Of a stretch of 64,000 nucleotides of DNA, positions 45,120 to 62,901 are shown one piece after another. Origin of the DNA: Neobacillus sp. OS1-2 (lineage in GTDB: Bacteria > Bacillota > Bacilli > Bacillales > Cytobacillaceae); assembly GCF_030915505.1 (NCBI RefSeq), contig NZ_CP133265.1, positions 1,364,001-1,428,000 on the forward strand, written 5' to 3'. Below the pieces are notes generated by a model. It was not told the DNA's origin. It worked only from the letters and a program-made list of their open reading frames with translations, and made no database searches. The position numbers were made by a program, and so were the translations under genes. Numbering within the stretch: position 1 is the stretch's first letter; each line of letters opens with the position of its first letter.

Positions 45120-45123
45120 CGAT

Positions 45124-45768: not shown

Positions 45769-45797
45769 TTCACTTCATCTCCCATTGTGGTAGTGAT

Positions 45798-47497: not shown

Positions 47498-47529
47498 TCT
47501 TCTGCTCCTCCTTACTCAATGATACTCGC

Positions 47530-47600: not shown

Positions 47601-47619
47601 GAATTAGGTGTTATCGGTT

Positions 47620-48948: not shown

Positions 48949-48990
48949 TTTCTTCCCTCTCTTTCTAAAAATAAAAATAATTACAAAAAG

Positions 48991-49009
48991 TGATAGCGTT
49001 TTCATTATA
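48991..49009 (-). promoter_or_regulatory. Perfect cre site overlapping the -10 of the galactonate operon
   Basis: ATGAAAACGCTATCA (49005-48991 on the minus strand) matches every position of the cre consensus. It overlaps a TATAAT -10 (49009-49004), so CcpA should block initiation when preferred sugars are present. Confidence 0.75.
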
Positions 49010-49077
49010 TGGCAAAAAAAATTTGGTTTCATAAATCTCTTAAAATATGGAATTCTGCGCTATCATACTTATTTTAA

Positions 49078-49094
49078 ATGGTTTACAAAACCAT
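49078..49094. promoter_or_regulatory. Palindrome ATGGTTTACAAAACCAT, possible IclR-type operator
   Basis: Seven-base arms with a three-base spacer lie about 70 bases upstream of the -10 of the galactonate operon and 46 bases from the end of the IclR gene. Different from the palindromes upstream of iclR, so the cognate protein is unclear. Confidence 0.5.
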
Positions 49095-49139
49095 ATAATG
49101 ACCCATTCATTTAACCAAATTTGATAAAGACGATTTTAT

Positions 49140-49886
49140 TTATCTGTATCCAATGCTGCATGATATGTTCATCGCGGCAGCGAGCAGTTTATCGATAACC
49201 ATTTCCTTCTGTTTAAGCATTCGTTCTTTCGGTCCTGCTACGCTAATGGCTGCCTGAATGGTCTGGTCTACTCCATAAACAGGAGCCGCAAGACAATAGA
49301 GGCCTTCTTCATTCTCTTCATCGTCAATTGAGTAACCCTGTTTCGCAAACATGTCTAATTGCTGCAGAAGGTCCTCCTTTTTCGTAATGGTCTTTTGCGT
49401 GATCGGTTCAAGTCGTAATTGACCTAAAATTTCTCTTTTCTTATTTTCAGGAAGAAAAGTTAAAAATGCTTTGCCTAAACCCGTACAGTACAGCGGTTTA
49501 CTTTTTCCAGGCTCTGCCGTGGTTCGTATGGAGCGATTACTATTTATTTTTGCTACATACACCAATTCAGATTGTTCAAGAGTGGCCATAAATACCGTTT
49601 CCTGAACCGTTTCCATTAATCTTTCCAGAAAAGGGTACCCTTGCGCAGAAAGGTCAAATGCATCCTTTGCCGCACCGCCAAGCTGGATTAACTTGGGCCC
49701 TAGCTTATATTTCCGAAAATGATCTACGGTCAGGTAGCTGTTTTTATAAAGCGTTTCAACCAAGCCTGAAGTACTGCTTTGAGGAAAGGAAAGGATTTCG
49801 CTAATTTCCTTTATCGTTAATCCAACTGGATGCTGGGCAAGTAAATCAAATACCTTCAATACCCGCTCTGCTGATTTCACCGACAT
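49140..49886 (-). CDS. IclR-family transcriptional regulator
   Basis: A 248-residue regulator. The winged helix-turn-helix (residues 5-60; AERVLKVFDLLAQHPVGLTIKEISEILSFPQ region) is followed by an effector-binding GAF-like domain with YCTGLGKAFLTFLPE (about 125) and a C-terminal DDEENEEGLYCLAAPVY motif. IclR members commonly sense sugar acids; position beside the galactonate operon suggests 2-keto-3-deoxygalactonate or galactonate as effector. The start at 49886 follows GGGGAGG. Paired palindromes directly upstream imply autoregulation. Confidence 0.9.
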   Translation of the reverse strand: MSVKSAERVLKVFDLLAQHPVGLTIKEISEILSFPQSSTSGLVETLYKNSYLTVDHFRKYKLGPKLIQLGGAAKDAFDLSAQGYPFLERLMETVQETVFMATLEQSELVYVAKINSNRSIRTTAEPGKSKPLYCTGLGKAFLTFLPENKKREILGQLRLEPITQKTITKKEDLLQQLDMFAKQGYSIDDEENEEGLYCLAAPVYGVDQTIQAAISVAGPKERMLKQKEMVIDKLLAAAMNISCSIGYR

Positions 49887-49902
49887 CTTACTACCTCCCC
49901 AA

Positions 49903-49936
49903 ATCACATATGTGATGCAAAATCATATATGTGATT
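49903..49936. promoter_or_regulatory. Paired palindromes before iclR (ATCACATATGTGAT)
   Basis: A perfect 14-bp palindrome (49903-49916) and a one-mismatch copy AATCATATATGTGATT (49921-49936) are centred 19 bases apart, just upstream of the ribosome site. Likely the regulator's own operator. Confidence 0.65.
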
Positions 49937-50109: not shown

Positions 50110-51096
50110 TCATTTTACTAGACTTTGTAATTCTGGGACTACATGTTCTGGCACTTGTCCTGTAACACCTGCTACTAGGTTCTTAGCAGCAACCATGGCC
50201 ATATCAAATCGTGTTTTTTCTGTAGCAGAGCCAATATGCGGCAATGTGACAACATTGGCCATGTTCAGAAGCGGATTATCCATTTCAATAGGTTCTGCTT
50301 CATACACATCCAGACCCGCTCCATAAATTTTGCCTTCTTTTAATGCACGAATAAGAGCTTTTTCATCAACGACCTGCCCTCTAGCACAATTAATAAAAAT
50401 GGCCGTTGATTTCATCCTATGAAACTGCTCTTCTCCCATAAAATGATAGGTAGATTCATTCAATGGAAGCATCAGTAACACAAAATCTGAGCCCTCTAAT
50501 AAAGGGTTCAGTTCACAATATTGAATTCCATACTTTTCCTCTAGCGCATACTTTCTCCTTGGACTGTTATACAAAACATTCATTTCAAATCCCAGCGCAG
50601 CTCTCCTGGCAATCTTTTCACCGACCCGTCCCATGCCAATAATCCCTATTGTGGCATGGTGCACATCTTGACCAAAAATGAAGGAGTCAGTAAATGGCTT
50701 TTCCCACCTTTTGTCCTTTACTACATTATTTAATTCCGGGATTCTTCTGGCAGCAGAAAGAATTAACCCAAAGGCCAAGTCCGCCACCGTTTCATCTAGG
50801 ACAAAGGGGGTATGTGTGCCTACTACCCCGCATTGTTTCATAGCAGCGGTATCAAAGTTATCATAGCCAACTCCAAATTTGCTAACAATTTTCAAATGGG
50901 GAGCATGGTTTAAAAACTCCCTATTAATGGCGCCTTTTGATGTCATCAGCCCTTCCACTTCCGCTGCTTCCTTCAAAAGAACCTCCATTGGGATTGGCTC
51001 CTGTTTATTCCATATCTTATACTCGCAATAGTGTGCGATGTATTCCTCCACTTCTATTGGAATAGGTTTAGCAATAAAGACTTTTGGTTTCATCAT
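50110..51096 (-). CDS. D-isomer specific 2-hydroxyacid dehydrogenase (hydroxypyruvate/glyoxylate reductase type)
   Basis: A 328-residue NAD(P)-dependent dehydrogenase. The nucleotide-binding loop GIIGMGRVGEKIARRA is near residue 153, the catalytic Arg in NCARGQVVDEKAL (about 235), Glu in DVYEAEPIE (about 265) and His in TLPHIGSATEKTR (about 286). Substrates of this family are small 2-oxo acids such as glyoxylate, hydroxypyruvate or phosphonate-like acids. The start follows GGGGGTGA, 36 bases after the DeoR regulator gene. It fits reduction or oxidation of a C3-C4 acid in the tetrose/sugar-acid cluster, but this is inference. Confidence 0.9.
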   Translation of the reverse strand: MMKPKVFIAKPIPIEVEEYIAHYCEYKIWNKQEPIPMEVLLKEAAEVEGLMTSKGAINREFLNHAPHLKIVSKFGVGYDNFDTAAMKQCGVVGTHTPFVLDETVADLAFGLILSAARRIPELNNVVKDKRWEKPFTDSFIFGQDVHHATIGIIGMGRVGEKIARRAALGFEMNVLYNSPRRKYALEEKYGIQYCELNPLLEGSDFVLLMLPLNESTYHFMGEEQFHRMKSTAIFINCARGQVVDEKALIRALKEGKIYGAGLDVYEAEPIEMDNPLLNMANVVTLPHIGSATEKTRFDMAMVAAKNLVAGVTGQVPEHVVPELQSLVK

Positions 51097-51132
51097 GGTT
51101 CACCCCCAAATTCCTCCATTTGACACTGATTC

Positions 51133-51906
51133 CTATTCGGCAATTTCTAAATTGATCTGGTTATCAGCAAAGTAATTTCTTATTTCTTCTGTAACCTGTT
51201 GATCTGTAATAAATGTATCAATCTCATTCGGGCGTGCGAATGTCGCACTTGAGCTTTTATCTATTTTACTATGATCTAGTAAAACAATGACTTTATTAGC
51301 TACAGATACCATGGTCCGTTTTAATTCCACTTCATAAAAACTAAAATCGGATAATCCATCCCGTGTATTAAATGCATATGCTGACGTGAAAAGCAGATCA
51401 ATATTAATTTTTCTTAAAAGCTCTTCCCCGAGCAGTCCTTCCACTGAATTAGAAGAATGGCGGACAATACCACCAATAATAATGACGGTTAAATTTGGAT
51501 TTTCCTTTAACAATGCTGCTGTAGCTATACCACTGGTAACGACCGTAAGTCTCATTTTCGTTTCACTTAAATACTTGGCAAGCTCAAAACAGGTCGTACT
51601 TGCGTCTAAAAGGATACACTGGCCTTGTTGAATATACTTTAGTGCGCTATAGCCGATTCGTTGTTTTTCCGCGTGGAATTTCTTTCCCCGATTCTCATAC
51701 GTTTTATCGATTGGATCCGGTTCATCTCCTTTAAGCATCGCCCCGCCATGTGTGCGGATAAGGAGGCCTTGTTTCTCCATTTGATTTAAATCAGACCTGA
51801 TCGTAGCTGCAGAAATCTTAAGCAAATCAGTCAAATCATTTACATTGACCGTGCCTTTTTCTGTCAGCATTTCAATTATTAGTTTTCTCCGTTGATCGGC
51901 GAACAT
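51133..51906 (-). CDS. DeoR-family transcriptional repressor
   Basis: A 257-residue repressor. The N-terminal helix-turn-helix (VNVNDLTDLLKISAATIRSD, about 19-38) and the DeoR sensor domain (LLDASTTCFELAKYL about 96; LLDHSKIDKSS near 210) are visible. It precedes the dehydrogenase gene. A motif CTTTCATTTCCTTTCGTT overlaps its own ribosome site and recurs at the divergent rpiB promoter, so this protein is the likely controller of the whole tetrose cluster. DeoR proteins usually sense phosphorylated sugars. Confidence 0.92.
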   Translation of the reverse strand: MFADQRRKLIIEMLTEKGTVNVNDLTDLLKISAATIRSDLNQMEKQGLLIRTHGGAMLKGDEPDPIDKTYENRGKKFHAEKQRIGYSALKYIQQGQCILLDASTTCFELAKYLSETKMRLTVVTSGIATAALLKENPNLTVIIIGGIVRHSSNSVEGLLGEELLRKINIDLLFTSAYAFNTRDGLSDFSFYEVELKRTMVSVANKVIVLLDHSKIDKSSSATFARPNEIDTFITDQQVTEEIRNYFADNQINLEIAE

Positions 51907-51915
51907 CTTATCACC

Positions 51916-51933
51916 CTTTCATTTCCTTTCGTT
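51916..51933. promoter_or_regulatory. DeoR operator-like motif, autoregulatory copy
   Basis: CTTTCATTTCCTTTCGTT, ten bases upstream of the deoR-type gene start. It differs from the left arm at 61317-61334 in only two positions. A -10 TATAAT lies upstream at 51974-51979 (minus strand). Confidence 0.6.
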
Positions 51934-52137
51934 AATTCCTCAAACATTCTCCCGAAATAATATTAGTACTCCTATTATATAAGTTTCTAGATAAAAAGTC
52001 CTGTAAAAGGTTCAGAAATGATAAAATATCCTTTTCCTTTTCATTAAAGATATTTTCACTTTGTATTGTTTTTCGTTACTTCAACGCAGTGATTGAATAA
52101 ATACTAAAGCAAACAGAGAGAAACATAACAAGCCGCT

Positions 52138-52200
52138 AAAAAAATCCCCTCCATTGTAGATAGAGTAGAATCTTCCTAGTCTATCTACAATGGAGGGGAT
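52138..52200 (-). terminator. Terminator of the tetrose operon (21-bp perfect stem)
   Basis: A 21-base arm (52144-52164) and its exact complement (52180-52200) enclose a 15-base loop, followed by seven T residues on the minus strand. It follows the TpiA-like gene stop at 52229. Confidence 0.9.
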
Positions 52201-52228
52201 ATTCCATAAAGGAACTCATGTATACATT

Positions 52229-53002
52229 CTACACACCTAATTTCGCCTCAAGCGTGTAAAGGATTTTTTGAAAACTCTCAATATCCCAAGCTGCCCTCCC
52301 AATAAATAAGCCATTAACATTTTCAAGTTTACTATATTCAAGGAAATTTTCTTGATTAACACTCCCGCCATACAAGAGTGGAATAGTCAAGCCAACTTCC
52401 TCAAACAGCTCTACCAAGGTACTCCGAAGAAAATGATGGATGTCTGCAACGTAAGCAGCATCAGCCGGAACCCCCTGATCTCCTATTGCCCAGACAGGTT
52501 CATAAGCAATTAGAATCTCCTTAGCCATTTCCTTTGATAGGCCCTGTAAGCAAACTTTAAGCTGTGCCGCCAATGTTTCCTTCGAAATCAGCTGCTCCTT
52601 TTGATCCAAGTTTTCACCAATACAAATCAGTGGTTTAATAGAATAGTTTAAGGCAGCATGGACCTTTTTATTAATGGCCACGTCCGTTTCATTAAAATAT
52701 TGCCTGCGTTCCGAATGGCCCAACTCAATCAAATCAATGCCAATTTCAGCTAACATCCGTGGGGAAATCTCACCCGTATAAGCGCCGCTATCTTCCCAGT
52801 GCATGTTTTGTGCCCCTAAATACATGTCGGTTTCCGTCGTTAGCTCCTTAATCGGAACAAGGGCGGTGTGGGAAGGAATGATAAATAATTGTATAGAAGA
52901 GGGAATCGCTTCTGAAATGGACCGCAGCTCTTTTGTGAACGCGACTCCTTCTGCGATTGTCTTTGTCATCTTCCAATTGGTCCCGATCCAAATCTTGTTC
53001 AT
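52229..53002 (-). CDS. Triosephosphate isomerase paralogue (EryH/TpiA2-like)
   Basis: A 257-residue TIM barrel with the complete catalytic set: Lys11 in TNWKMTK, His96 in ELGHSERR and Glu168 in AYEPVWAIG. Glycolytic TPI genes normally lie with gap-pgk-gpmI; this one sits with tetrulose-type genes and is therefore probably specialised, as in EryH (TpiA2) of erythritol-using bacteria, where it interconverts tetrulose phosphates. The start at 53002 follows GAGGATG. Dihydroxyacetone phosphate remains an alternative substrate, especially with DhaKL in the same operon. Confidence 0.87.
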   Translation of the reverse strand: MNKIWIGTNWKMTKTIAEGVAFTKELRSISEAIPSSIQLFIIPSHTALVPIKELTTETDMYLGAQNMHWEDSGAYTGEISPRMLAEIGIDLIELGHSERRQYFNETDVAINKKVHAALNYSIKPLICIGENLDQKEQLISKETLAAQLKVCLQGLSKEMAKEILIAYEPVWAIGDQGVPADAAYVADIHHFLRSTLVELFEEVGLTIPLLYGGSVNQENFLEYSKLENVNGLFIGRAAWDIESFQKILYTLEAKLGV

Positions 53003-53042
53003 ATCAGCATCCTCTTTCATCCATTCTCCTAGTAACCTCACA

Positions 53043-53942
53043 TTATCTACTAGCTACTAAACCCAATGCTTTTTCTAAAATCGACCGTACCGTTTTTTCA
53101 TTCGCTTGGTAATTGTCTTTATCCGTTCCCCGCACTTCTACAGCCACCCGTAAACCACGCTCGGATTGGAGACTGAGTTCATCAGCCTTTCGTAATATAT
53201 CACTTATCTTCTCAATCGTTAAGAAACCAGGCTCTCCAATTGGCATATGGAAATCCCCATATAAATTATTAGTTGGATCAACCACTGCATTGGAAAAATG
53301 AATCTGGTGAATCTCGACTTTAGCTAGCTCTAACGCCTCGGCAATGCCTTCCTTATTTAATGCAGCATGCGCCGTATCAAAGGCTAAACCAATGTTATCG
53401 TGTTTCTCCGCCACCCGTGAAAGTAATTCGACCGTATCTTTCATCGGCCCTATCAGACGTTTTTTATGGGCAAAGCGATCAAGATGTTCGACTAAAACAT
53501 TCATCTGATATTTAGCGGCTTCTTCACAAATATCACACAAGGCATGGTAAAAACCTTCCATTGCCTCTAGCCGCCGTTCCGGGCCAGGGTCTGGCCCAGG
53601 GACAAAGGCAATATTGCTCGCCCCGCATTCTGCAGCTAAATAGATGTTTTCCTTGATCTGGCGAACGGACTCTGAGCGAAGTTGCGAATCAACTGACGAA
53701 ACATCAAGTTTGTTTTTATCTATTAAAAAGGTTAACCATTGTGTTAGTTGAAAATGGTATTGTTCCTTTAAAGCCAAGATGCGTTTGCGCTCCTGTTGAT
53801 CTTGCCCATCGGCAATTTCAAACGAACGATAGAATCCGTCAGCTGCCATTTTTTCAAGTAAATTGACCGTAAAACCTTTTTCATGATGAACAGGAAAATA
53901 GATTTCAGGTACAAGTAGGGAAGGAATAAACTGTGTACTCAT
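53043..53942 (-). CDS. Xylose-isomerase-like TIM barrel sugar isomerase/epimerase, paralogue 1
   Basis: A 299-residue AP-endonuclease-2 fold protein. Metal ligands expected of the fold are visible: Glu in VLVEHLDR (about 160), Asp/His in AFDTAHAAL (about 197), HFSNAVVDP and Glu near VAVEVRG (about 280). It starts MSTQFIPSLLVPEIYFPV after AAAGGAG. It is clearly paralogous to the gene at 59300 (IPSLLV, FYRSFEI, AAECG, FVPGPDPG and HMPIGEPGFLT shared). EryC, which isomerises tetrulose phosphate, belongs to the same fold. Exact reaction unknown. Confidence 0.82.
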   Translation of the reverse strand: MSTQFIPSLLVPEIYFPVHHEKGFTVNLLEKMAADGFYRSFEIADGQDQQERKRILALKEQYHFQLTQWLTFLIDKNKLDVSSVDSQLRSESVRQIKENIYLAAECGASNIAFVPGPDPGPERRLEAMEGFYHALCDICEEAAKYQMNVLVEHLDRFAHKKRLIGPMKDTVELLSRVAEKHDNIGLAFDTAHAALNKEGIAEALELAKVEIHQIHFSNAVVDPTNNLYGDFHMPIGEPGFLTIEKISDILRKADELSLQSERGLRVAVEVRGTDKDNYQANEKTVRSILEKALGLVASR

Positions 53943-54028
53943 TCTACATTTCTCCTTTACTGATTGATTCAATTACTTCTTCCTGGGCAGGTCTTTAAGC
54001 AGCTACCACCAACCATGCGGCCTGAACC

Positions 54029-54841
54029 TTAAGCTTCGAGTAGTGCCAGGCTATTTTGATAGCATTGATAGGCCTCTTCCGCTGTCCCGTTGCGGTGAAT
54101 GATGGTATTTAACCCAGCAACGACACCAATGGGATTTTCGTCAAGTGTAATATTCCGACCAACAGCCACACCCTTGGCCCCCACATCCATGCAATGCTTC
54201 ACATATGTAAAGTAGTCTAGAATGGTTTCCGTTTTTGGCCCCCCCAACACGAGGACAGGACGTTTGGCCGCTTCAATGATTCTCCGATCTTCTGGTTCCC
54301 CGGTTAATCTTGTTTTAATAATATCTGCGCCTAGCTCTGTCCCAATCCTTGCAGCCATAGCAATCGTTTCGATTTGATTCGATTCCGGACTTGTCACATG
54401 GTAGCTATACGGCAGGGTTTCACACATATATGGAACATTCCAGTGATCCGCTGCCTTGGCAAGATCCCAGGCCATTTTGTGTGAGGCCGCTTCATCAGCT
54501 GCTCCAGGGAAAGTCATCGAAATCACACTATCCGCTCCAAGCTTTAACGCATCTTCAACCGAGAGAAGCTCTGTTGTCCGAGGAATCCGTGCATCGTATA
54601 CACTGGTAGAGATGTCAGCACGCACCACTAAACCCGCGCCGGCAAATGCCTCTGCATACAGTTTCGCCATACCATATGTAACAATCACGGCATCAAGTCC
54701 GTTTTCAATCAGCTGTGGCATAATAGCCATGGTTTGATCAATACCGGCTGTTTTGGTAGAAAAATAGTATCCATCCAGCGCCAGTGTAATCGATTTTCCA
54801 TCATTTGAAAAAAGGTGTGACAGTCTTCGTGCTTTGGACAT
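54029..54841 (-). CDS. DhnA/LacD-like class I aldolase
   Basis: A 270-residue class I (Schiff-base) aldolase of the DhnA type. Lys176 in ELGADIIKTRLTG is the probable Schiff-base residue, and the C-terminal VGRNITLDENPIG (about 227) is the phosphate-binding region. LacD and DhnA split or form ketose bisphosphates. In this cluster it may cleave a phosphorylated sugar acid or condense DHAP with erythrose 4-phosphate. A hairpin separates it from the DapA-like gene upstream. Confidence 0.87.
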   Translation of the reverse strand: MSKARRLSHLFSNDGKSITLALDGYYFSTKTAGIDQTMAIMPQLIENGLDAVIVTYGMAKLYAEAFAGAGLVVRADISTSVYDARIPRTTELLSVEDALKLGADSVISMTFPGAADEAASHKMAWDLAKAADHWNVPYMCETLPYSYHVTSPESNQIETIAMAARIGTELGADIIKTRLTGEPEDRRIIEAAKRPVLVLGGPKTETILDYFTYVKHCMDVGAKGVAVGRNITLDENPIGVVAGLNTIIHRNGTAEEAYQCYQNSLALLEA

Positions 54842-54879
54842 AACAGCCCCCTCTTCCCTGTCAAATTAGCAAAATCTTG

Positions 54880-54910
54880 TAAAAAAGATCCCACGGTGGA
54901 GATCTTTTTT
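54880..54910 (-). terminator. Intergenic hairpin between DapA-like and aldolase genes
   Basis: AAAAAAGATC and GATCTTTTTT form a symmetrical stem with a CCAC/GTGG inner pair. It may act as a partial terminator. Confidence 0.6.
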
Positions 54911-54916
54911 TAAACA

Positions 54917-55840
54917 TTATTGAACTGGTGCACTTTCTAACAAGTCCGCTTGAACGAGAATCTTTTTAAGCTCCTCGATTTTTTCAGTACGTAACGAACA
55001 AGCCGGTGCAAGAACATGTGTCGAAATATCCAATCCTGTTAATTTCATCGCCTCTTTTACCACACTAACAAACGGTGAATCGAGTTTGTACATGGTTGGC
55101 AAGATTGCCATGCGTTGATGAAAAGCCACAGCCTCATCGATACGGTTCTCTCTGTATGCCTTGTAAACACCAAGCGCTAGTTGTGGGGCAAAATTAATGG
55201 AAGCACTAATCACGCCATCCCCGCCAAGTGTCAAGGTTTGTAAGAAATGATCATCAAAACCGGAGAACACAGCAAAATCTGGATGCTTTCCTTTAACGGT
55301 TAAAATCATATCGCGAATATGTGCCACACTTTCAACCGTTTCCTTAATTCCGACGATATTTTCATGTGCATCAACCAATTTAAGAACGAATTCCGGACTC
55401 AAATCCTGTCCTGACATGGTAGGGAAATTGTAAAGGTAAATCGGTACGTGAACGGAGTTGGCAATCTCACTGTAATGAGCAAATAAATTTTCCTCTGTCA
55501 ATGACCAATAGTATGGATTGATGATGACAACCGCATCGACACCTACCGATTCCGCATGTTGACTAAGAAGAACCACTTCACGCGTACTAGTGCTTCCCGT
55601 CCCAATCAGGACTGGCACCCTGCCGCCCACATATTCCGTCGTAAACAATGCTACTTCCTTTCGTTCTTCCACAGACATTTGCGAGAACTCGCCACCTGTT
55701 CCCAGAAAGAACAATCCATCCACACCCGAATCAATTAAAAAATCAATAACAGTTGCCATTCCTTTTTTATCAAGTCCACCTTGTTCGTCAAAAATGATTG
55801 ATACCGGGGGGATAACCCCTTGAAGTTTTTTGGTTGTCAT
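54917..55840 (-). CDS. DapA/NAL-family class I aldolase
   Basis: A 307-residue member of the dihydrodipicolinate synthase/N-acetylneuraminate lyase family. The Schiff-base Lys166 is in ENIVGIKETVES, the catalytic Tyr137 in IYLYNFP, and GTGGEF (about 47-52) is the substrate carboxylate loop. Family members form or split pyruvate-containing keto acids. True lysine biosynthesis is unlikely here because of the sugar context; a 2-keto-3-deoxy sugar acid is more probable. It lies 76 bases downstream of DhaL. Confidence 0.9.
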   Translation of the reverse strand: MTTKKLQGVIPPVSIIFDEQGGLDKKGMATVIDFLIDSGVDGLFFLGTGGEFSQMSVEERKEVALFTTEYVGGRVPVLIGTGSTSTREVVLLSQHAESVGVDAVVIINPYYWSLTEENLFAHYSEIANSVHVPIYLYNFPTMSGQDLSPEFVLKLVDAHENIVGIKETVESVAHIRDMILTVKGKHPDFAVFSGFDDHFLQTLTLGGDGVISASINFAPQLALGVYKAYRENRIDEAVAFHQRMAILPTMYKLDSPFVSVVKEAMKLTGLDISTHVLAPACSLRTEKIEELKKILVQADLLESAPVQ

Positions 55841-55930
55841 CCTATTTCCTCCTGTTCCTCACTAAGTTTTACTCCATTTGCTTCATTGGCTGATGGGCAT
55901 GGGTTTCGATTGATCAATGATACTCCAGCT

Positions 55931-56599
55931 TTATTGTTGAGCAGCGGCTTTCTCGACCCATTCTCTCATTGATTTAAACATAATCCAGACCGTCGTTGCC
56001 CCGGCATCTTGATGACCAATCGCTCGTTCGCCAAGCGACTTCGCCCTGCCAAACTTGGCAACATATTCCTTTGATTTTTCTACACCGTCTGCTGCACATT
56101 TCTCAGCCACAACAAGTCCTTCTAGTAAACTATGATTGGCTTCGATACTTTGTTTGATCCCCGCGGCTGCAGGTTCAAGTGCATCGATCATCGTTTTATC
56201 GCCTAATTCAGCCTTCCCACGTTCCTTAATCGACTTCACTGCCCCTTCAAGAATTTGTCCTAATAATGGCAGTGTCAATTCCTCCTGTGGGTTGAGACCT
56301 TTCACGCCACCAGTAAACAATGTACCGAAAATAACACCGGATGCTCCGCCCATGTTCGCAATCATCGACATTCCAATGGTTTTAAAAACGTCATTGATGG
56401 TGGTAAATTCTTTTTTGTTTAAGTTTTCATCTGCCTTTTTAAACCCAACAGACATGCCGATTCCATGGTCTCCATCGCCGATAGCGCTATCAATTTTGGT
56501 TAAAAACGGCTTGTTCTCGATAACTTGCTCTCCCACATACAGGAACATATCTTTCACCTGTTCGGCATTTAGCTTGACTTCATAGGTACTATTTGACAT
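55931..56599 (-). CDS. dhaL: Dihydroxyacetone/tetrulose kinase subunit DhaL
   Basis: A 222-residue nucleotide-binding subunit. The magnesium-binding loop IDSAIGDGDHGIGMSVG is at about residues 35-51, and MIANMGGASGVIFGTLF (about 80) and DAGATTVWIMFKSM close the site. No DhaM (PTS phospho-carrier) gene is present in the window, so the phosphate donor is probably ATP, as in erythrulose kinases. The start at 56599 follows GGAGG and overlaps the end of dhaK by 11 bases. Confidence 0.9.
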   Translation of the reverse strand: MSNSTYEVKLNAEQVKDMFLYVGEQVIENKPFLTKIDSAIGDGDHGIGMSVGFKKADENLNKKEFTTINDVFKTIGMSMIANMGGASGVIFGTLFTGGVKGLNPQEELTLPLLGQILEGAVKSIKERGKAELGDKTMIDALEPAAAGIKQSIEANHSLLEGLVVAEKCAADGVEKSKEYVAKFGRAKSLGERAIGHQDAGATTVWIMFKSMREWVEKAAAQQ

Positions 56600-57620
56600 A
56601 AACGCTGCCTCCGATACTAGTTGATGACAATCCCTTTTTGTAATACGGTGAATCAGCTGGTGCATTATATAAATCTTTTAATTCATCATCTAACTTTAGG
56701 AACGTGATAGAGAATCCCGCCATTTCCTGTGTCGTACAATAGCTATTAACATCCATGTCATACGCTTTAATCCCTTTTTCTTCTAACATTTGCGCCACTC
56801 TGCGGTTTACAATTAATAGCTCCATTAACGTCGTTGAGCCAAGGCCATTGACTAATACAGCCACTTCATCACCGGACTCAATATGGCTTTCAGCAAGCAA
56901 TGTTTCCATCAACTTATCTGTCAACACATCGGCAAACATCATTTTTGTACGTTCCATTCCTGGTTCTCCATGGATGCCCATGCCAATCTCAATTTCATCA
57001 TCACCAAGTGTGTACGGCAGCTCTGTTGCACCAGGGATGGACCCAGGAGCCAAGGCAACACCAATCGAGAAAGTATGATCATTCGCTTTCTGGGTCACCT
57101 GGGTAACTTCTTCTAAAGACAGCCCTCTTTCTGCCGCGGCACCCGCAATCTTGACGACAAAAATGTCTCCGGCAATCCCTCTGCGATCTCCTTTGCGTTC
57201 AACAGGGGCTGATGCTACATCATCCGTAACGAGGACTGTACGAGTCTGAATATCTTCCATTTCTAGTAGTTCTTCTGCCATGCCGAAGTTTAATATATCA
57301 CCGGAATAATTTCCGTAGATAAAGAGAACACCTTTACCAGAGTCAACAGCTTTCGCCACTTCAAACACATTTGTTGGTGGCGGAGCCGCAAAAACATTCC
57401 CCAATGTGACGCCATCAGCGAGTCCTTCACCAATTAACCCCAAAAACAATGGTTCATGGCCACTGCCGCCTCCTGTAACGATCGCTACTTTATCTTTACG
57501 ATTCCGACGAATGAGTCCGTTTACATTTTCAACTTTTTGATATGTACGTTTATATGCTGCCAAGAAACCTTCAATTGTTTCTTCAACTACGCATTCAGGT
57601 TGGTTGATAATTTTCTTCAA
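56589..57620 (-). CDS. dhaK: Dihydroxyacetone/erythrulose kinase subunit DhaK
   Basis: A 343-residue substrate-binding subunit. The substrate forms a hemiaminal with His217 in GMGIHGEPGM; His55 in GGGSGHEPLF is the second active-site histidine. In tetritol-using bacteria, paralogues (LerK, DerK) act on erythrulose rather than dihydroxyacetone, and the isomerase genes here favour that reading. It is the first gene of its operon, with its own promoter at 57689-57717. Confidence 0.9.
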   Translation of the reverse strand: MKKIINQPECVVEETIEGFLAAYKRTYQKVENVNGLIRRNRKDKVAIVTGGGSGHEPLFLGLIGEGLADGVTLGNVFAAPPPTNVFEVAKAVDSGKGVLFIYGNYSGDILNFGMAEELLEMEDIQTRTVLVTDDVASAPVERKGDRRGIAGDIFVVKIAGAAAERGLSLEEVTQVTQKANDHTFSIGVALAPGSIPGATELPYTLGDDEIEIGMGIHGEPGMERTKMMFADVLTDKLMETLLAESHIESGDEVAVLVNGLGSTTLMELLIVNRRVAQMLEEKGIKAYDMDVNSYCTTQEMAGFSITFLKLDDELKDLYNAPADSPYYKKGLSSTSIGGSVYVK

Positions 57621-57656
57621 AGTAAACTCCCCTTTCCATAAAAGGAAAAACTTGTA

Positions 57657-57670
57657 TTTTCATTTGTTTG
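57657..57670. promoter_or_regulatory. DeoR operator-like motif before dhaK
   Basis: TTTTCATTTGTTTG, downstream of the dhaK promoter. It shares the TTTCATT half with the other operator-like sites. Confidence 0.4.
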
Positions 57671-57688
57671 TGTTTATTGTTATTTACT

Positions 57689-57717
57689 ATCATAAACTTC
57701 TATTTTAATTGTGTCAA
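57689..57717 (-). promoter_or_regulatory. Sigma-A promoter of the dhaK operon
   Basis: On the minus strand TTGACA (57717-57712), a 17-base spacer and TATGAT (57694-57689). Confidence 0.8.
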
Positions 57718-57792
57718 TTTTCATATTATTGTTATTAGGTTAAATTTTCCGCATTATTTCGACAAAAATCATCATCATTTTTTAAAAAAGGG

Positions 57793-57835
57793 AAAAAACG
57801 AAACAAGAAGGCTACTTACTAGCAGCCCTCTTGTT
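57793..57835 (-). terminator. Terminator of the MFS transporter gene
   Basis: AACAAGAGGGCT and AGCCTTCTTGTT form a stem followed by TCGTTTTTT on the minus strand. Confidence 0.88.
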
Positions 57836-57846
57836 CATTCTAAAGA

Positions 57847-59163
57847 CTATGCTTTCGCTGGTTTAATTGGATCTTTCACAATGAACCAATAGAAGAAGGC
57901 TGCAAAACCAGCGATAATCCCACCAGAAATAAAGGCGATTGAATAAGAACCTGTTGTATCTAAAATGATACCCGTTACCAATGGGGCAAATGCACCGCCA
58001 AAGTAACCACCGAAGTTTTGAATCGCACCAACAGATCCAACCATAGCAGGGGGTGCTACATCACCAGCCAATGCCCACGCACTGCCCGTAATGGCAGAAA
58101 CGACAGCAAGTGCTAACGTCATCAAGGTAATCGTGATCGCTAATCCATGTACAAATGGAAGCATAATGACAAATGCAGCAGCAAGAATCGCACTGATTGC
58201 AATCAGACCGCGTTTCGCGTTAATCGGGGAACAAATCCCTTTATCCGCTAACACCTTTGTGATGTATCCTCCGCCTAAGTTGCCGGCAATCCCGCCAATA
58301 TAGGGAACAGCCGCATAAAAACCAAGTTCTTTAAAAGAAATATCTTGTGTGTTTAATAGATATAATGGTAAGAAGGTAAGGAAAATATTCCAGATCCAAA
58401 TGGTACAGAAGAAGCCAAGAATCATTCCCCAAACACTTCTATACTTAAATAGTTCTCTCCATTTAATATTGGTCGATTCAACGGTATCGTTGCTTGCGCC
58501 GCCTTGGGCTTTGATATAATCATATTCCTCTTTGGAAAGGAGCTTACTTTGATCAGGTGATTTATAGAATTTCATAAATAAAAGGATAAAGATAATACCA
58601 ATACCACCGGTAATGAAGAATAGGGCACGCCAGCCAAACGCTACCTGAATCGCAACTAGAATAGGTGGTGCAATGGCAGGACCCACTTTTGAGGACGCAT
58701 CCCAGAACCCTGTTGCTAGTCCACGTTCACTCTTTGGAAACCACTGTGCAGTAATTTTAGCATTAGATGGCATACATGGCGCTTCCCCGACCCCTAGCAA
58801 GAACCTTGCTCCGACTAAGGTAAGTAGCTTGTTACAGGCGCCAGTTAAAGCGGTTGCAACACTCCACCAAAGAACGGCAATCGAATAAACCCGCTTCGCT
58901 CCAAATTTATCAATGAGCCAGCCCGAAGGAAGCTGCATGCACGCATAGGTCCAAGAAAAGATCGTTCCTAAAAGGCCAATATGCGTCATATTTAAATCTA
59001 ATTCTTTAATCATAGCTGGAGCCGCAATCGAAAGATTCGTTCGGTCCAGGTAGTTAATGATCCCACCAATTAATAGCCAAATAACCACCGTCCAACGAAA
59101 CTTCTTATTCGTTTTTGCTGACTTGACCGGAAAATCCGTCTGAAGCGCCTGTTCTGTTTTCAT
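57847..59163 (-). CDS. MFS transporter, anion:cation symporter (ACS) family
   Basis: A 438-residue transporter with 12 helices. The ACS-type signature is seen near the start: GGIINYLDRTNLSIAAP (about 36-52) and GWLIDKFGAKRVYS (about 82-95). Relatives include GudP, DgoT and ExuT, which carry sugar acids by proton symport. This indicates that the tetrose cluster's substrate is likely an acidic sugar derivative, or that a neutral tetrose is taken up by another route. The start at 59163 follows GGAGGA, with a cre site about 45 bases upstream. Confidence 0.88.
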   Translation of the reverse strand: MKTEQALQTDFPVKSAKTNKKFRWTVVIWLLIGGIINYLDRTNLSIAAPAMIKELDLNMTHIGLLGTIFSWTYACMQLPSGWLIDKFGAKRVYSIAVLWWSVATALTGACNKLLTLVGARFLLGVGEAPCMPSNAKITAQWFPKSERGLATGFWDASSKVGPAIAPPILVAIQVAFGWRALFFITGGIGIIFILLFMKFYKSPDQSKLLSKEEYDYIKAQGGASNDTVESTNIKWRELFKYRSVWGMILGFFCTIWIWNIFLTFLPLYLLNTQDISFKELGFYAAVPYIGGIAGNLGGGYITKVLADKGICSPINAKRGLIAISAILAAAFVIMLPFVHGLAITITLMTLALAVVSAITGSAWALAGDVAPPAMVGSVGAIQNFGGYFGGAFAPLVTGIILDTTGSYSIAFISGGIIAGFAAFFYWFIVKDPIKPAKA

Positions 59164-59208
59164 GTTTTTCCTCCTCATATACTCATTTTTTTCTAACGTA
59201 AAGGTCTC

Positions 59209-59223
59209 AGATAGCGCTTTCAC
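59209..59223 (-). promoter_or_regulatory. Candidate cre site before the MFS gene
   Basis: GTGAAAGCGCTATCT on the minus strand matches 14 of 15 cre positions. Confidence 0.6.
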
Positions 59224-59230
59224 AAATGGT

Positions 59231-59269
59231 AAAAAAATCTATCCCCATCTCACGTAAAGAAAAGGATAG
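59231..59269 (-). terminator. Terminator after the TIM-barrel gene pair
   Basis: CTATCC and GGATAG form a short stem followed by ATTTTTTT on the minus strand. Modest stem, good T-run. Confidence 0.55.
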
Positions 59270-59299
59270 TCATACTGCTTGCCCCTGAATGACATAGGC

Positions 59300-60199
59300 T
59301 CAGTTACTTTCGACAAGGTTCATCGCACTTTCTAATGCAGCTCTAATGGTTCGCTCATTTGCAAAATAATCAATCTTGTCTCTCCCTTGCACTTCTACTG
59401 CAACAGGTAAGCCTTTTTCAGCCTGAATGCCAAGTTCATCTGCCTTTCGCAAAATACGCGACATCTTTTCGACTGTTAAAAAGCCTGGTTCACCTATTGG
59501 CATGTGGTTATCACCATATAAAGGGCTTTCAGGATCTAAGACGACATTTGCAAAATGAAGGCGATCCATTGTTGCTTTCGCTAAATCTAATGAGGTAAAA
59601 ATATCCTCGCCATTAAGTGCTACATGGGCTGTATCAAATACGAGCCCAACATTTGAAAACTTTTCCTTCACCTTAGAAATGATCGGAACAGCTTCACTTG
59701 TGGGACCTAGTACTCGTTTTTTGTGTACTTCGCGGTCCATCGCTTCAATCGATACATGCATATTAAACGTAGCTGCTTCCTCACAAATTTCACAAAGACT
59801 TTCATAAAATGCTTCAAGTCCCTGTTTGCGTAAATGGATGCCTGGGTCAGGACCCGGAACAAATGCAACAGTTGAAACGCCGCACTCTGCTGCCAAATAT
59901 AAGCTTTCTTTAATCTGCTTGACGGTCTTTCCTCTTAAACTAGCATCTATCGCCGAAACATTTAGATCCGTCTTATACGTTAAAAAAGTTAACCACTGCA
60001 AGATCGATAAGTTATTTTGTTCCTTCGCACGTAAAATTCGGTTTCGATCCTCTTGATCATACCCATCACCGATTTCAAAAGAACGGTAAAATCCTTGAGA
60101 CCCCAAATTTTCTACTACACCAGCGGCAAACCCCTTTTCATCCTTCACCGGAAAAAACACTTCTGTAACGAGCAAGGATGGAATGATTCGGTTCCCCAT
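59300..60199 (-). CDS. Xylose-isomerase-like TIM barrel, paralogue 2
   Basis: A 299-residue AP-endonuclease-2 fold enzyme closely paralogous to the gene at 53043 (same length; shared FYRSFEI, LYLAAECG, AFVPGPDPG, HMPIGEPGFLT). Glu in SIEAMDRE (about 160), Asp-x-x-His in VFDTAHVAL and Glu in VAVEVQGRD (about 275) are the expected metal and catalytic residues. Two diverged copies in one cluster suggest two related steps or two stereoisomers. The start overlaps the preceding stop by one base (TAATG). Confidence 0.82.
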   Translation of the reverse strand: MGNRIIPSLLVTEVFFPVKDEKGFAAGVVENLGSQGFYRSFEIGDGYDQEDRNRILRAKEQNNLSILQWLTFLTYKTDLNVSAIDASLRGKTVKQIKESLYLAAECGVSTVAFVPGPDPGIHLRKQGLEAFYESLCEICEEAATFNMHVSIEAMDREVHKKRVLGPTSEAVPIISKVKEKFSNVGLVFDTAHVALNGEDIFTSLDLAKATMDRLHFANVVLDPESPLYGDNHMPIGEPGFLTVEKMSRILRKADELGIQAEKGLPVAVEVQGRDKIDYFANERTIRAALESAMNLVESN

Positions 60200-61026
60200 T
60201 ATATTTTCACTCCGTTAACAATCGGCTTCAATTTCTCATCCACATATTTACTAATATCATAGATACATTGATCAGCATTTGTTTTGGTTTCTTCCGTTTC
60301 TTCTTCGACCATAATCCAGCCATCATAACCATACTCAACTAAAGATTGAACAATCGCAGGAAAATCGATATCTCCAGTCCCCATCTTCTTCCACTCGAAG
60401 TCTTTCGAGCAATCCTTAAAATGAACATGTTTGATAATTGGCAGGTACTTTTTAACCACTTCAACTGGATCCATCCCACCAGCGGCAATATGACCGACAT
60501 CAGGTGTGTAAGCTACATACCGTGTATCTAATTCTTCAAAAAGAAGGGTATAATCACTTTCTGTTCTAAAATAGGAGGTTGCTGGAGAATGTGGGTGGAA
60601 TACAGCAACAACGCCATTTTCGACAGCACGTTTACTAACAGCATTCACGCAGCTAATAATCTCTCGTTGTCTTTTTACGAGATTATCACGATTAGGTCCT
60701 ACTCGTGCTGGTAAATTTAACTTTGCATTCGGGAAGTGCTTTAAATAGTTAATATAATAATCGGCACGTTGCTTCTCTTCTTCCGATTCTTTATCACTTT
60801 CCCAACTGAATGGTAAAGTGATTGCCGCTAGCTCAAGATCCATGCGAGCAAGCTTCTCTTTTAGTTTTTGAGGTGCTGCATTATATTTCCCCAATAAAGC
60901 ATACTGAACATCAATCCCCTTGAATCCAGCTTCCTTAACCGTATCAAGCATATGATCTAAGCAATCGACTTTTTCATCATAATCAAGTACCCATGTCGAT
61001 CCGTGACAACCAAATTTAATCGTCAT
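60199..61026 (-). CDS. Sugar phosphate isomerase/epimerase, IolE/IolH-like TIM barrel
   Basis: A 275-residue TIM-barrel protein more distant from the two paralogues. Metal-site residues: Glu/His region VAVFHPHSPAT (about 142-152), PDVGHIAAGG (about 175), HVHFKDCSKDFEW (about 199) and IMVEEETEE (about 247), the pattern of inosose isomerases/dehydratases and hydroxypyruvate isomerases. It is the first gene of its operon and is transcribed away from rpiB. Confidence 0.82.
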   Translation of the reverse strand: MTIKFGCHGSTWVLDYDEKVDCLDHMLDTVKEAGFKGIDVQYALLGKYNAAPQKLKEKLARMDLELAAITLPFSWESDKESEEEKQRADYYINYLKHFPNAKLNLPARVGPNRDNLVKRQREIISCVNAVSKRAVENGVVAVFHPHSPATSYFRTESDYTLLFEELDTRYVAYTPDVGHIAAGGMDPVEVVKKYLPIIKHVHFKDCSKDFEWKKMGTGDIDFPAIVQSLVEYGYDGWIMVEEETEETKTNADQCIYDISKYVDEKLKPIVNGVKI

Positions 61027-61096
61027 TTGCCATTTCCCCCTTTTCCGCTATTCAACTACTTAACTACGAAATCTTTCAATCCTTATTAAATGTTTG

Positions 61097-61148
61097 CAAA
61101 TGATAATGGGCAAACAAGTTGTTCCTCTATTTAGAATATTATCATTTG
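61097..61148. promoter_or_regulatory. Inverted pair CAAATGATAAT / ATTATCATTTG
   Basis: Two 11-base arms with exact inverted complementarity and a 30-base spacer. A minus-strand promoter (TTGACA, 16 bases, TAATAT with extended TG) overlaps the right arm. Tandem GAAAGCAAATGAAAGCAAAA near 61193-61212 adds more TTTCATT-like half-sites. Confidence 0.55.
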
Positions 61149-61317
61149 TTTTTGTTTTGTCAATTGTTTTTTGAAAATTTTATTTTATATGAAAGCAAAT
61201 GAAAGCAAAAGTCTCTAAACGTAGGAATGATTCAACTGTTTAACTATTTTTGACGATTCCCTCATATAATACAACAATTTAATAGAGAATTAACAAAGGA
61301 CTGTGTTAATCATTTAC

Positions 61318-61373
61318 TTTCATTATCTTTCGTTTGTGAAGAAAAATATTGACATAAACGAAAATAAATGAAA
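61318..61373. promoter_or_regulatory. DeoR operator-like inverted repeat at the rpiB-glpX promoter
   Basis: TTTCATTATCTTTCGTTT (61318-61335) and AAACGAAAATAAATGAAA (61356-61373) are near-exact inverted copies with 20 bases between. A TTGACA -35 (61349-61354) is trapped between them, consistent with repression of the rpiB-glpX operon. Confidence 0.65.
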
Positions 61374-61408
61374 AAATATGGATAATCAAACAAATTGGAG
61401 TGATAATT

Positions 61409-61873
61409 ATGAAAATTGGAATTGGTTCAGATCATAATGCCTTTCAAATGAAGGAGGAAGTAAAATTATATATTACTAGTTTAGGGCATGAAGTGATCGA
61501 TTATGGCTGTTATTCAGAAGATGAAGTCGATTACCCTGGTGTGGCATTTCATGTAGCAACTGACGTGACAACGAACAAACTAGAACGCGGCATTCTTTTT
61601 TGCGGAACAGGAATTGGCATGTCGATTGCAGCCAATAAGGTTCCAGGGATCCGTTCGGCCCAATGCCATGATGTATTTTCTGCAGAACGCGCCCAACTTA
61701 GTAACAACGCCCAAATCATGACCATCGGAGCAAAAGTAATTGGTGTAGAGCTTGCAAAAAAAGTGGCTGCAGCCTACTTAAGCGTTTCCTTCCAAGATGG
61801 TAATTCTTCAAGAAAAATCAATCAAATCATGGATAAAGAAAAGGAATATCTACTTAACGGGTCATGCTGCTAA
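61409..61873 (+). CDS. RpiB/LacAB-family sugar-phosphate isomerase (EryI-like)
   Basis: A 154-residue RpiB fold isomerase with Asp8-His9 in GIGSDHNAF, the catalytic base Cys65 in LFCGTGIGMSIAANK and QCHDVFSAERAQLSNNA (about 84-100). RpiB normally interconverts ribose and ribulose 5-phosphate; in erythritol pathways EryI converts tetrulose 4-phosphate to erythrose 4-phosphate. The start at 61409 follows GGAGTGAT. Together with glpX it forms a short divergent operon. Confidence 0.9.
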   Translation: MKIGIGSDHNAFQMKEEVKLYITSLGHEVIDYGCYSEDEVDYPGVAFHVATDVTTNKLERGILFCGTGIGMSIAANKVPGIRSAQCHDVFSAERAQLSNNAQIMTIGAKVIGVELAKKVAAAYLSVSFQDGNSSRKINQIMDKEKEYLLNGSCC

Positions 61874-61929
61874 TCTCACTTTACTTTCGGTCACTAAAGG
61901 TAAAAGTATAAATACAGGGAGATGACACT

Positions 61930-62901
61930 ATGCAAACGAAAAGTAAAGTCTGCACACGGGGCTTGGTGATGGATTTTCTCGCAGTCACACAACAGGCAGC
62001 GATTGCATCCTTTCCTTGGATTGGCAAAGGAAACAAAATGGAAGCAGATGGCGCGGGTACTGCGGCGATGCGCACCCTCATGAACGCGATTGATATGCGG
62101 GGCAAAATTGTCATCGGTGAGGGTGAAATGGATGAAGCCCCCATGCTATACATTAATGAGGAACTCGGAACTGGAATCGGCCCCATGGTGGATATCGCTG
62201 TTGACCCTGTCGAAGGAACAACCTTAATGGCAAACGGGCAAGGAAATTCACTTGCCGTTATTGCCGTTGCTGAGCGCGGAAGTTTACTACATGCCCCTGA
62301 TATGTACATGAAAAAGATTGCGGTTGGACCAAAAGCGAAGGGCTGTATCGATATTGAATTACCATTAATCGATAACATGAGAGCGGTAGCAAAGGCACTT
62401 GGTAAGGACATGAAGGATTTAACTGTTATGATGCAGGATCGGCCGCGACATAACGAGCTCATGAATGTGGTGATTGCTGCCGGTGCCAGCATAAAGTTAT
62501 TCTCAGATGTCGATATCACCGGTGCAATTGCGACCGCTATTGATGGGATGGAGGTTGATTTATTAGTTGGAACAGGCGGTGCCCCAGAAGGTGTTATTGC
62601 AGCCACCGCCTTAAAATGCTTAGGAGGAGACTTCCAAGCAATACTACTTCCACAAGATGAAGCTGAATATAACCGGTGTCTCCAGATGGGCATTCCACAT
62701 CCTGAAAAACCGTTAACATTAGATGAGATTGTCAAGACCGAAGATTGTTTCTTTGTCGCAACCGGAATCACCGATGGCTTGCTGCTTGAGGGCGTAAAGA
62801 GAAAAGAGAACACGGCCATTATGACCCACTCTCTCATTACGATAGGCGGAGACAGTAAAAATTCACAATACGTCAATGCCACTTTTCATACCACTCGCTA
62901 G
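61930..62901 (+). CDS. glpX: Class II fructose-1,6-bisphosphatase, GlpX type
   Basis: A 323-residue phosphatase of the GlpX family. Metal-binding motifs: GEGEMDEAP (about 63-71), DPVEGTTLM (about 92-100), DRPRHNELM (about 170) and GTGGAPEGVIAA (about 215). GlpX enzymes hydrolyse fructose 1,6-bisphosphate and some act on sedoheptulose 1,7-bisphosphate. Genomes usually hold a copy elsewhere for gluconeogenesis, so this one is probably pathway-specific. It follows rpiB by 56 bases, with RBS GGGAGATGAC. Confidence 0.92.
   Translation: MQTKSKVCTRGLVMDFLAVTQQAAIASFPWIGKGNKMEADGAGTAAMRTLMNAIDMRGKIVIGEGEMDEAPMLYINEELGTGIGPMVDIAVDPVEGTTLMANGQGNSLAVIAVAERGSLLHAPDMYMKKIAVGPKAKGCIDIELPLIDNMRAVAKALGKDMKDLTVMMQDRPRHNELMNVVIAAGASIKLFSDVDITGAIATAIDGMEVDLLVGTGGAPEGVIAATALKCLGGDFQAILLPQDEAEYNRCLQMGIPHPEKPLTLDEIVKTEDCFFVATGITDGLLLEGVKRKENTAIMTHSLITIGGDSKNSQYVNATFHTTR

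Follow-up and report, generated by a model that had tools for sequence, protein, structure and literature searches.

A twelve-gene cluster of Neobacillus sp. OS1-2 as a candidate route from keto sugar acids via erythrulose into central metabolism

Bacterial pathways that pass through four-carbon sugars are known in several forms. Erythritol and L-erythrulose are degraded via EryH-EryI in Brucella and via LerK-LerI-DerI in Mycolicibacterium. In the LtnD-OtnI-OtnK-OtnC pathway for tetronates, a hydroxyacid dehydrogenase and a TIM (triosephosphate isomerase)-barrel isomerase are followed by a kinase and a decarboxylase. In D-apionate degradation, as reportedly described by Carter and co-workers in 2018, OiaC, a decarboxylase of the xylose isomerase family, yields L-erythrulose for LerK, LerI and DerI. 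Here, we analyze a stretch of 64,000 nucleotides from Neobacillus sp. OS1-2 (contig NZ_CP133265.1, positions 1,364,001 to 1,428,000), termed the window, to whose numbering the coordinates of the cluster refer. It contains 12 genes (51133–62901) that combine the isomerases of a tetrulose phosphate pathway with a sugar-acid transporter and three TIM barrels.

We propose that the cluster is a catabolic regulon that would lead five-carbon keto sugar acids via erythrulose and sedoheptulose bisphosphate (SBP) into central metabolism, a reading that, taken as a whole, could equally well prove right or wrong. We infer each reaction, the carbon number of the substrate and the task of each TIM barrel from the gene families, the order of the genes, a shared motif, the loop of one isomerase, the type of GlpX and the gene combinations in related loci. 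A transporter of the ACS family (57847–59223, minus strand; TIGR00893, 297 bits at a cut-off of 395) would import a five-carbon keto sugar acid, which two TIM barrels of the epimerase/isomerase type, TIMa (59300–60199, minus) and TIMb (53043–53972, minus), would convert to the 3-keto (beta-keto) form. The third, IolE-like TIM barrel, TIMc (60199–61026, minus), would decarboxylate this beta-keto acid to erythrulose via a metal-bound enediolate. DhaKL would then form erythrulose 1-phosphate, TpiA2 would turn the latter into D-erythrulose 4-phosphate and RpiB would provide D-erythrose 4-phosphate. The candidate aldolase DhnA would condense erythrose 4-phosphate with dihydroxyacetone phosphate (DHAP) to SBP, with GlpX as the bisphosphatase, thereby bypassing transaldolase. 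The entry step looks undescribed, no description of it having been found in the open-licence literature, which is weak evidence; the lower half follows published chemistry. An earlier, sequence-only reading of this DNA listed the genes correctly, as all open reading frames are in place and the family assignments hold, and it recognized a candidate tetrose/sugar-acid pathway. It overlooked that the TIM barrels probably constitute the pathway entry and that a five-carbon sugar acid is a more likely substrate than a tetrose or tetritol.

The two paralogous and one distant TIM barrels named in that reading all belong to PF01261. TIMa and TIMb are 57% identical, and the third protein is distant; an hhalign comparison of TIMc with TIMa/b, based on shallow alignments, gave no significant profile match although all are PF01261 proteins. 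TIMa and TIMb align with D-tagatose 3-epimerases and with TM_0416, which we take to be IolO. In this alignment, both keep the catalytic Glu as well as the DTxH motif, and they may be keto-acid isomerases or epimerases. TIMc aligns with the lyase IolE, with FHPxS in the place of YHHHM of both IolE proteins shown, and has a His at the strand of the epimerase Glu. The likeness to IolE in this alignment favors a lyase over an isomerase with two Glu residues. TIMc stays below the cut-offs for IolE (TIGR04379, 92 vs. 290 bits), hydroxypyruvate isomerase (TIGR03234, 48.5 vs. 353 bits) and 2-oxotetronate isomerase (NF043033, 33.9 vs. 325 bits). Predicted models were moderate for TIMa (predicted local distance difference test, pLDDT, 78) and better for TIMc (87); fold searches with both yielded epimerase, isomerase and IolE matches and no decarboxylase among the best 50 of each.

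The gene neighborhoods of TIMc speak for its proposed role. TIMc proteins with at least 50% identity are encoded in 18 loci, comprising seven of the Neobacillus type (window, L017, L018, L019, L020, L022 and L025) as well as L021, L026, L027, L028, L079, L080 and L103 to L107, with one more match (G405) outside this set. The 18 stretches were searched by tblastn at 1e-8, the window from position 42000 on. A free-ketose kinase is present in 16 of them, DhaKL in 13 and xylulokinase (XylB) in L021, L027 and L028; the XylB cut-off is passed in L027 and L021, and L028 is 97% identical to L027. Sugar-acid-type transporters are likewise found in 16 loci: 11 have an ACS-type protein, L027 and L028 a KdgT-like one, L021 Tct (by eye) and L106 and L107 GntP (tested in L106, to which L107 is 98% identical). 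As an acid enters and a free ketose emerges, a decarboxylation should lie in between. Seven of the 18 loci have a beta-hydroxyacid dehydrogenase beside TIMc, of the 3HCDH type in L079, L080 and L103 and of the HIBADH type in L104 to L107 (families were tested for L079, L103, L104, L105 and L106; L080 is 79% identical to L079 and L107 66% to L104). None of these seven stretches contains TIMa/b, and the other 11 contain TIMa/b and neither dehydrogenase type. A beta-hydroxyacid dehydrogenase would make a beta-keto acid and leave the removal of CO2 to TIMc, unless the dehydrogenase itself decarboxylates. The replacement of the dehydrogenase by TIMa/b is what would be expected if these were isomerases or epimerases forming that beta-keto acid out of a 2-keto acid. 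On these grounds, we regard acid entry by TIM-barrel decarboxylation as slightly on the probable side, and for TIMc as the decarboxylase we consider the case evenly balanced.

Several observations weigh against this assignment. IolE, the nearest characterized relative of TIMc, is a dehydratase and not a decarboxylase. The HIBADH-type partners (L104 to L106 tested) match best to tartronate-semialdehyde reductase, a classical partner of hydroxypyruvate isomerase, so that TIMc could be an isomerase. No acid transporter was recognized in L104, L105 shows ABC-type genes by eye, and the L106 and L107 stretches contain no kinase. Furthermore, the loci are not independent: seven of the 11 with TIMa/b represent a single lineage, L103 and L104 stem from one genome and so do L026 and L079. 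Distant TIMc relatives (27%) from Palleronia and Rhizobium (L081, L082) are accompanied by sugar ABC transporters, a Gfo/Idh oxidoreductase and a PfkB kinase and by no acid genes; in L081, the TIMc relative adjoins a DhnA relative (28%). Finally, Clostridia L041 and L061 contain a TIMa relative (33%) and no TIMc, in an operon with a PanE-like protein, YiaL, an ACS transporter, an FGGY kinase, AraD and UlaE; UlaD is not present.

The latter arrangement raises the possibility that the roles are reversed, with TIMa and TIMb as 3-keto-acid decarboxylases and TIMc as isomerase or epimerase, which we consider unlikely. The contig of L060, which starts within YiaL, features only YiaL, ACS, TIM and FGGY. 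PyrF is the sole PF00215 protein of G518; in G972 a second PF00215 protein, of the hexulose-phosphate-synthase type, is located elsewhere, and the single PF00215 protein of G931, as excerpted, gave no match. As a decarboxylase is needed in L041 and L061, UlaD is missing and G518 has only PyrF, the TIMa-type protein may decarboxylate there. On the other hand, the epimerase and IolO likeness of TIMa/b extends to the catalytic residues, and in the seven dehydrogenase loci, with no TIMa/b in the stretch, reversed roles would leave TIMc without a clear role and the decarboxylation without an enzyme. The two clostridial operons (L041, 2712–10705; L061, 7155–15116) also include a protein of about 350 residues, the L041 copy of which has no NCBIfam match at 1e-8.

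Other TIM barrels were encountered in the course of the survey. A further acid-to-ketose layout on pSymB of Sinorhizobium meliloti (L050, 3708–10725) unites PdxA, TctCBA, another TIM barrel and a DAK-family kinase in a single run; none of the TIM proteins encoded next to tpi/rpiB or DAK genes in L050, L063 and L064 is closely related to TIMa, TIMb or TIMc. Distant TIM homologues in Thermus and Enterococcus have no tetrose genes annotated nearby, the neighbors in Enterococcus being a thiamine pyrophosphate enzyme, a 2-hydroxyacid dehydrogenase and glycerate kinase. A DNA search of E. coli genomes for the Klebsiella TIM gene found none, and no TIM protein is annotated alongside the 3HCDH relative in L083. 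In L105 (G423), genes that by eye resemble glycoside hydrolases (4801–6372 and 18147–19667) flank TIMc-DhaKL; the first has no NCBIfam match at 1e-20.

The lower half of the proposed pathway, from the kinase onward to erythrose 4-phosphate, is a reading in which we have good confidence. DhaL (55931–56665, minus), the ATP-binding subunit of the ketose kinase, scores 175 bits with TIGR02365 (cut-off 138), and DhaK (56589–57620, minus), the ketose-binding subunit, shares with E. coli DhaK the aligned GIHGEPG motif in the region of the substrate-binding His. DhaK is single-copy in the genome; the absence of DhaM that had been stated for this kinase holds for the cluster, to which the search for DhaM was confined. 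The genome has separate housekeeping tpiA and glpX genes besides the cluster copies. The tetrulose-phosphate isomerase-like TpiA2 (52229–53041, minus) is 39% identical to the housekeeping TpiA and differs from it in loop 6 (WAIGDQGVPA vs. WAIGTGKSST). In an alignment of 12 sequences, the pattern WAIGxxGxPA is shared by TpiA2, its Neobacillus relatives and the proteins from Rhizobium phaseoli, Aestuarium, Gemmobacter and Thalassospira; it is also present in Heyndrickxia and in part in Alicyclobacillus, and Klebsiella and Enterococcus Tpi resemble neither this nor the housekeeping sequence. RpiB (61400–61873, plus), the putative D-erythrulose-4-phosphate isomerase, stays below the DerI cut-off (NF051858, 138.5 vs. 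240 bits), which counts against the assignment; the Klebsiella RpiB does so as well (179 bits).

The route from erythrulose phosphate to erythrose 4-phosphate, already suggested in the sequence-only reading, is supported by this loop signature and by the recurrence of the trio of kinase, Tpi and RpiB. The trio occurs together with tkt and tal/fsa in L037, L063, L066 and L079: Klebsiella combines it with tkt and tal, Aestuarium and Enterococcus with tkt and FSA (Enterococcus also with DhaM), and Heyndrickxia (L079) with tkt, an FSA-type protein and GlpX. In R. phaseoli (L062), tpi and rpiB are accompanied by tkt, a fructose bisphosphatase (FBPase) and a fructose bisphosphate (FBP) aldolase (FBA). 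These variants look like different solutions for using erythrose 4-phosphate, among which the GlpX of the window fits the bisphosphate solution. DAK homologues from Paenibacillus and Paracoccus have no tetrose neighborhood annotated. A polyol-type lower module was found on a Pseudalkalibacillus plasmid (L093, 1233–8085), consisting of an alcohol dehydrogenase, a major facilitator superfamily transporter, RpiB, DhaKL, GlpX and DeoR.

The presence of the pair of Tpi and RpiB as in erythritol loci, together with the polyol-type set of L093, would also agree with the simpler model of the sequence-only reading, in which a tetrulose, tetritol or tetronate is imported and the TIM barrels isomerize or epimerize tetroses. 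However, the cluster contains no polyol dehydrogenase, its transporter belongs to a sugar-acid family, and acid-type transporters and pentulose kinases repeatedly accompany the TIM barrels elsewhere, so we hold this model to be decidedly improbable. The pentulose kinases bring in another alternative, as L021, L027 and L028 have TIMc and TIMb with xylulokinase and no DhaKL: a six-carbon keto acid might be decarboxylated to a pentulose, which DhaKL would phosphorylate at position 1 and DhnA, which retains the Schiff-base Lys and the GGPKT and GRN motifs, would cleave to DHAP and glycolaldehyde, with TpiA2, RpiB and GlpX serving side streams. L026, with DhnA and DhaKL and neither TpiA2 nor GlpX in its stretch, would suit this scheme. 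Nevertheless, it appears very unlikely to us: the loop of TpiA2 and the GlpX-P type of GlpX favor the tetrose route, L079, which belongs to the same Heyndrickxia genome as L026, encodes TpiA2 and GlpX under the same motif, and Klebsiella has tkt and tal instead.

With regard to the proposed route via erythrulose and SBP, the GlpX protein of the cluster (61930–62901, plus) is 66% identical to GlpX-P of Bacillus methanolicus vs. 51% (54% by BLAST) to the housekeeping GlpX of its own genome. In an unrooted tree of 12 sequences without outgroup, GlpX-P groups with the cluster type (support 100/100), apart from four housekeeping GlpX proteins. According to an excerpt of PMC7092467, sedoheptulose bisphosphatase (SBPase) activity in B. 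methanolicus resides in GlpX-P and not in the chromosomal GlpX, so the cluster GlpX would be a sedoheptulose-1,7-bisphosphatase. The GlpX-P gene on plasmid pBM19 is accompanied by fba, tkt and pfk. The SBPase of this methylotroph and tetrose catabolism may have a common origin. Among plasmid records, GlpX-P (L092, corresponding to pBM19, 5613–6575) is the closest match to the cluster GlpX.

The SBP model put forward in the sequence-only reading is thus strengthened in its GlpX step and weak in its aldolase, as detailed below. Its accompanying claim that the aldolases and GlpX are foreign to the erythritol-type pathways does not hold: besides the R. phaseoli genes mentioned above, a putative FBA gene is present in two Mesorhizobium erythritol loci and adjoins rpiB in Brucella (PMC3599248, in part), and growth of Brucella on erythritol requires either transaldolase or an Fba/bisphosphatase route (PMC11005471, in part). 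In view of these precedents, the SBP bypass is not new. Moreover, a transaldolase-like protein is encoded in the Neobacillus genome, so that the bypass is not strictly needed, a point that counts against our proposal.

Among the aldolases, DhnA (54029–54841, minus) is of the class I type and keeps the Lys as well as the phosphate motifs, GGPKT and GRN, that characterize the family of MJ0400 and Thermoproteus tenax FBP aldolase. In this family, the Lys forms the Schiff base and a Tyr is also catalytic. A Leu occupies the position of this Tyr, which speaks against an SBP aldolase, and a Gly replaces the His after the first Asp; LsrF also lacks the FBP-aldolase Tyr. DhnA falls below every NCBIfam cut-off (NF040816, 128 vs. 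430 bits). Its substrate may be SBP, a ketose 1-phosphate or a different compound, and we put it forward as SBP aldolase with some doubt. The protein described earlier as a DapA-like aldolase (54917–55840, minus) does belong to the dihydrodipicolinate synthase family and is more exactly of the YagE type, giving a full-length match of 361.8 bits to YagE vs. 159 for the next of the solved family members. E. coli YagE is a probable 2-keto-3-deoxy-galactonate aldolase according to its Protein Data Bank entry, which suggests a 2-keto-3-deoxy-aldonate aldolase. Among the 18 TIMc loci, this gene occurs only in the seven of the Neobacillus type, and it has no place in the proposed pathway, which again argues against the latter.

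The layout of the cluster suggests four transcription units. In the order of transcription, the minus strand carries TIMc, TIMa and the ACS transporter; dhaK, dhaL, yagE-like, dhnA-like, TIMb and tpiA2; and deoR with a GhrB-like gene, and divergently on the plus strand rpiB is followed by glpX. The DeoR-family regulator (51133–51906, minus), kept in all seven Neobacillus-type loci and in L026 and L079, would bind one motif and thereby repress the four units. It had been claimed that all genes are under one motif, and sites resembling AACGAAANNAAATGAAA do precede all four units (51917, 57658 and 61140–61373); there is none directly before the ACS gene, which lies inside a unit. A pattern search located the site AACGAAAGGAAATGAAA before deoR (51917–51933, minus) and a weaker one with two mismatches (57658–57674, minus) just downstream of a promoter-like match (57717–57689) before dhaK. 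The divergent operator/promoter region (61140–61373) holds sites at 61140–61156 (minus), 61188–61204 (plus), 61308–61334 (minus) and 61357–61373 (plus), which are overlapped by promoter-like matches at 61163–61135 (minus) and 61349–61377 (plus). These three promoter-like matches, preceding dhaK, TIMc and rpiB, are the best of the region, and motif sites overlap or abut them; with 30 such matches in total vs. 31.1 expected by shuffling, only rank and position are meaningful.

A looser motif pattern yields four sites in 64 kb, all within the cluster, vs. 0.15 expected, an expectation that is partly circular as the pattern was derived from these same sites; a stricter pattern with three mismatches allowed gives 22 sites vs. 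8 expected, many of them outside the cluster. Independent support comes from the other six loci of the Neobacillus type and from the cluster of a second genus, L079, where such sites recur in the corresponding promoters. In L025 they occupy the same three places as in the window, and in L079 AACGAAAGTAAATGAAA and related sites lie between rpiB and TIMc and also before dhaK, as in the window. The dhaK site is weak throughout, with two mismatches in the window and one to three in other loci. At up to two mismatches, the sole match in L080 directly precedes the tpi gene, and the examined promoters of L021 and L027 have none. The consensus for a CcpA-type catabolite-responsive element is not found in the cluster promoters; its single match in the window lies elsewhere. 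Terminator-like sites are as frequent as expected by shuffling (11 vs. 10.9); the hairpin after the transporter gene (57801–57836, minus) has, with 16 pairs, the longest stem among those found, and inspection by eye showed that tpiA2 is followed by an inverted repeat with a stretch of T (about 52200–52140), which is not in the computed list. Both features contribute to the division into four units.

The 12-gene layout is common to the seven Neobacillus-type loci. Its nearest named relatives are found in Bacillus sp. MM2020_4 (98%) and in Neobacillus species, and the cluster proteins of L025 are 95–99% identical to those of the window. TIMa and TIMb are both present at cluster-level identity in four of 35 other genomes of the genus. 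When 398 genomes of the class were searched, two matched a TIMa/b profile at 1e-40 and seven a TIMc profile at 1e-60, the source genome included in each case. The cluster is a rare, patchily distributed unit. In L018 (12322–13221), TIMa is interrupted by two stops and DhnA shows a short internal alignment gap, which may reflect decay or sequencing error.

A thirteenth gene, encoding a GhrB-like D-2-hydroxyacid dehydrogenase (50110–51096, minus), starts the span originally delimited at 50110 and was omitted from the gene list given with it. It follows deoR after 36 bp and is probably co-transcribed here; it lies outside the conserved 12-gene set. No relative was found in the fetched stretches of L017, L018, L019, L020, L022 and L025, the last of which is otherwise near-identical. 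Dehydrogenases of the 2-hydroxyacid type (GhrB or Ldh_2) are present in the stretches of L021, L027, L028 and the window, the L021 homologue (70%) lying beside dgoD. On the other side of the GhrB-like gene, the window continues with an IclR gene, part of an adjoining galactonate-type cluster (42911–49907) with an ABC transporter and DgoA-, DgoK- and DgoD-like proteins. In L021, dgoD, dgoK and dgoA form a single run with TIMc, TIMb and the GhrB relative, so that the two clusters of the window may be metabolically linked.

A more far-reaching idea, and a rather doubtful one, is that TIMc founds a family of IolE-like TIM-barrel beta-keto-aldonate decarboxylases that would act as an interchangeable link from the uptake of sugar acids to ketose kinases. 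Preceded by a beta-hydroxyacid dehydrogenase, they would shorten aldonates oxidatively by one carbon, six-carbon acids to pentuloses and five-carbon acids to tetruloses; preceded by TIMa/b, they would provide a redox-free entry for 2-keto acids, coupled in Neobacillus to an SBP bypass with a non-canonical DhnA. If our main proposal holds, the cluster would give Bacilli a modular entry by which keto sugar acids reach the pentose phosphate pathway, provide three so far unassigned TIM-barrel types with testable reactions and tie the SBPase known from methylotrophy to tetrose catabolism.

Excerpts of the literature on related substrates list apiose enzymes of another route (PMC11747546) and mention RuBisCO-like apiose enzymes (PMC6302742); those on an E. 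coli apiose cluster (PMC13001218) and on tetrose isolates (PMC12780249) contain nothing bearing on the TIM proteins. As far as the excerpts go, the SBP bypass of Brucella (PMC11005471) and the ribulose monophosphate cycle of B. methanolicus (PMC7092467) share with the proposed pathway the conversion of erythrose 4-phosphate and DHAP via SBP to sedoheptulose 7-phosphate, and the cluster has a GlpX of the GlpX-P type; the Brucella aldolase is a class II Fba, whereas the only candidates in the cluster are of the DhnA and YagE types. With the erythritol/L-erythrulose pathway, the cluster has in common a tetrulose kinase step leading to isomerases that resemble TpiA and RpiB, and control of the DeoR type; it differs in having no polyol dehydrogenase, separate DhaK and DhaL subunits, a sugar-acid transporter and three TIM barrels. 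In the case of D-apionate, OiaC would be a precedent, as far as its description goes, for a 3-keto-acid decarboxylase of PF01261, and the window cluster differs in that no candidate apionate oxidoisomerase or lactonase was recognized in it. The LtnD-OtnI-OtnK-OtnC pathway is comparable in combining a hydroxyacid dehydrogenase and a TIM-barrel isomerase with a subsequent kinase and decarboxylase; here, the kinase is DhaKL, which presumably acts on the free ketose, and no OtnC-type decarboxylase was recognized, so that decarboxylation would precede phosphorylation.

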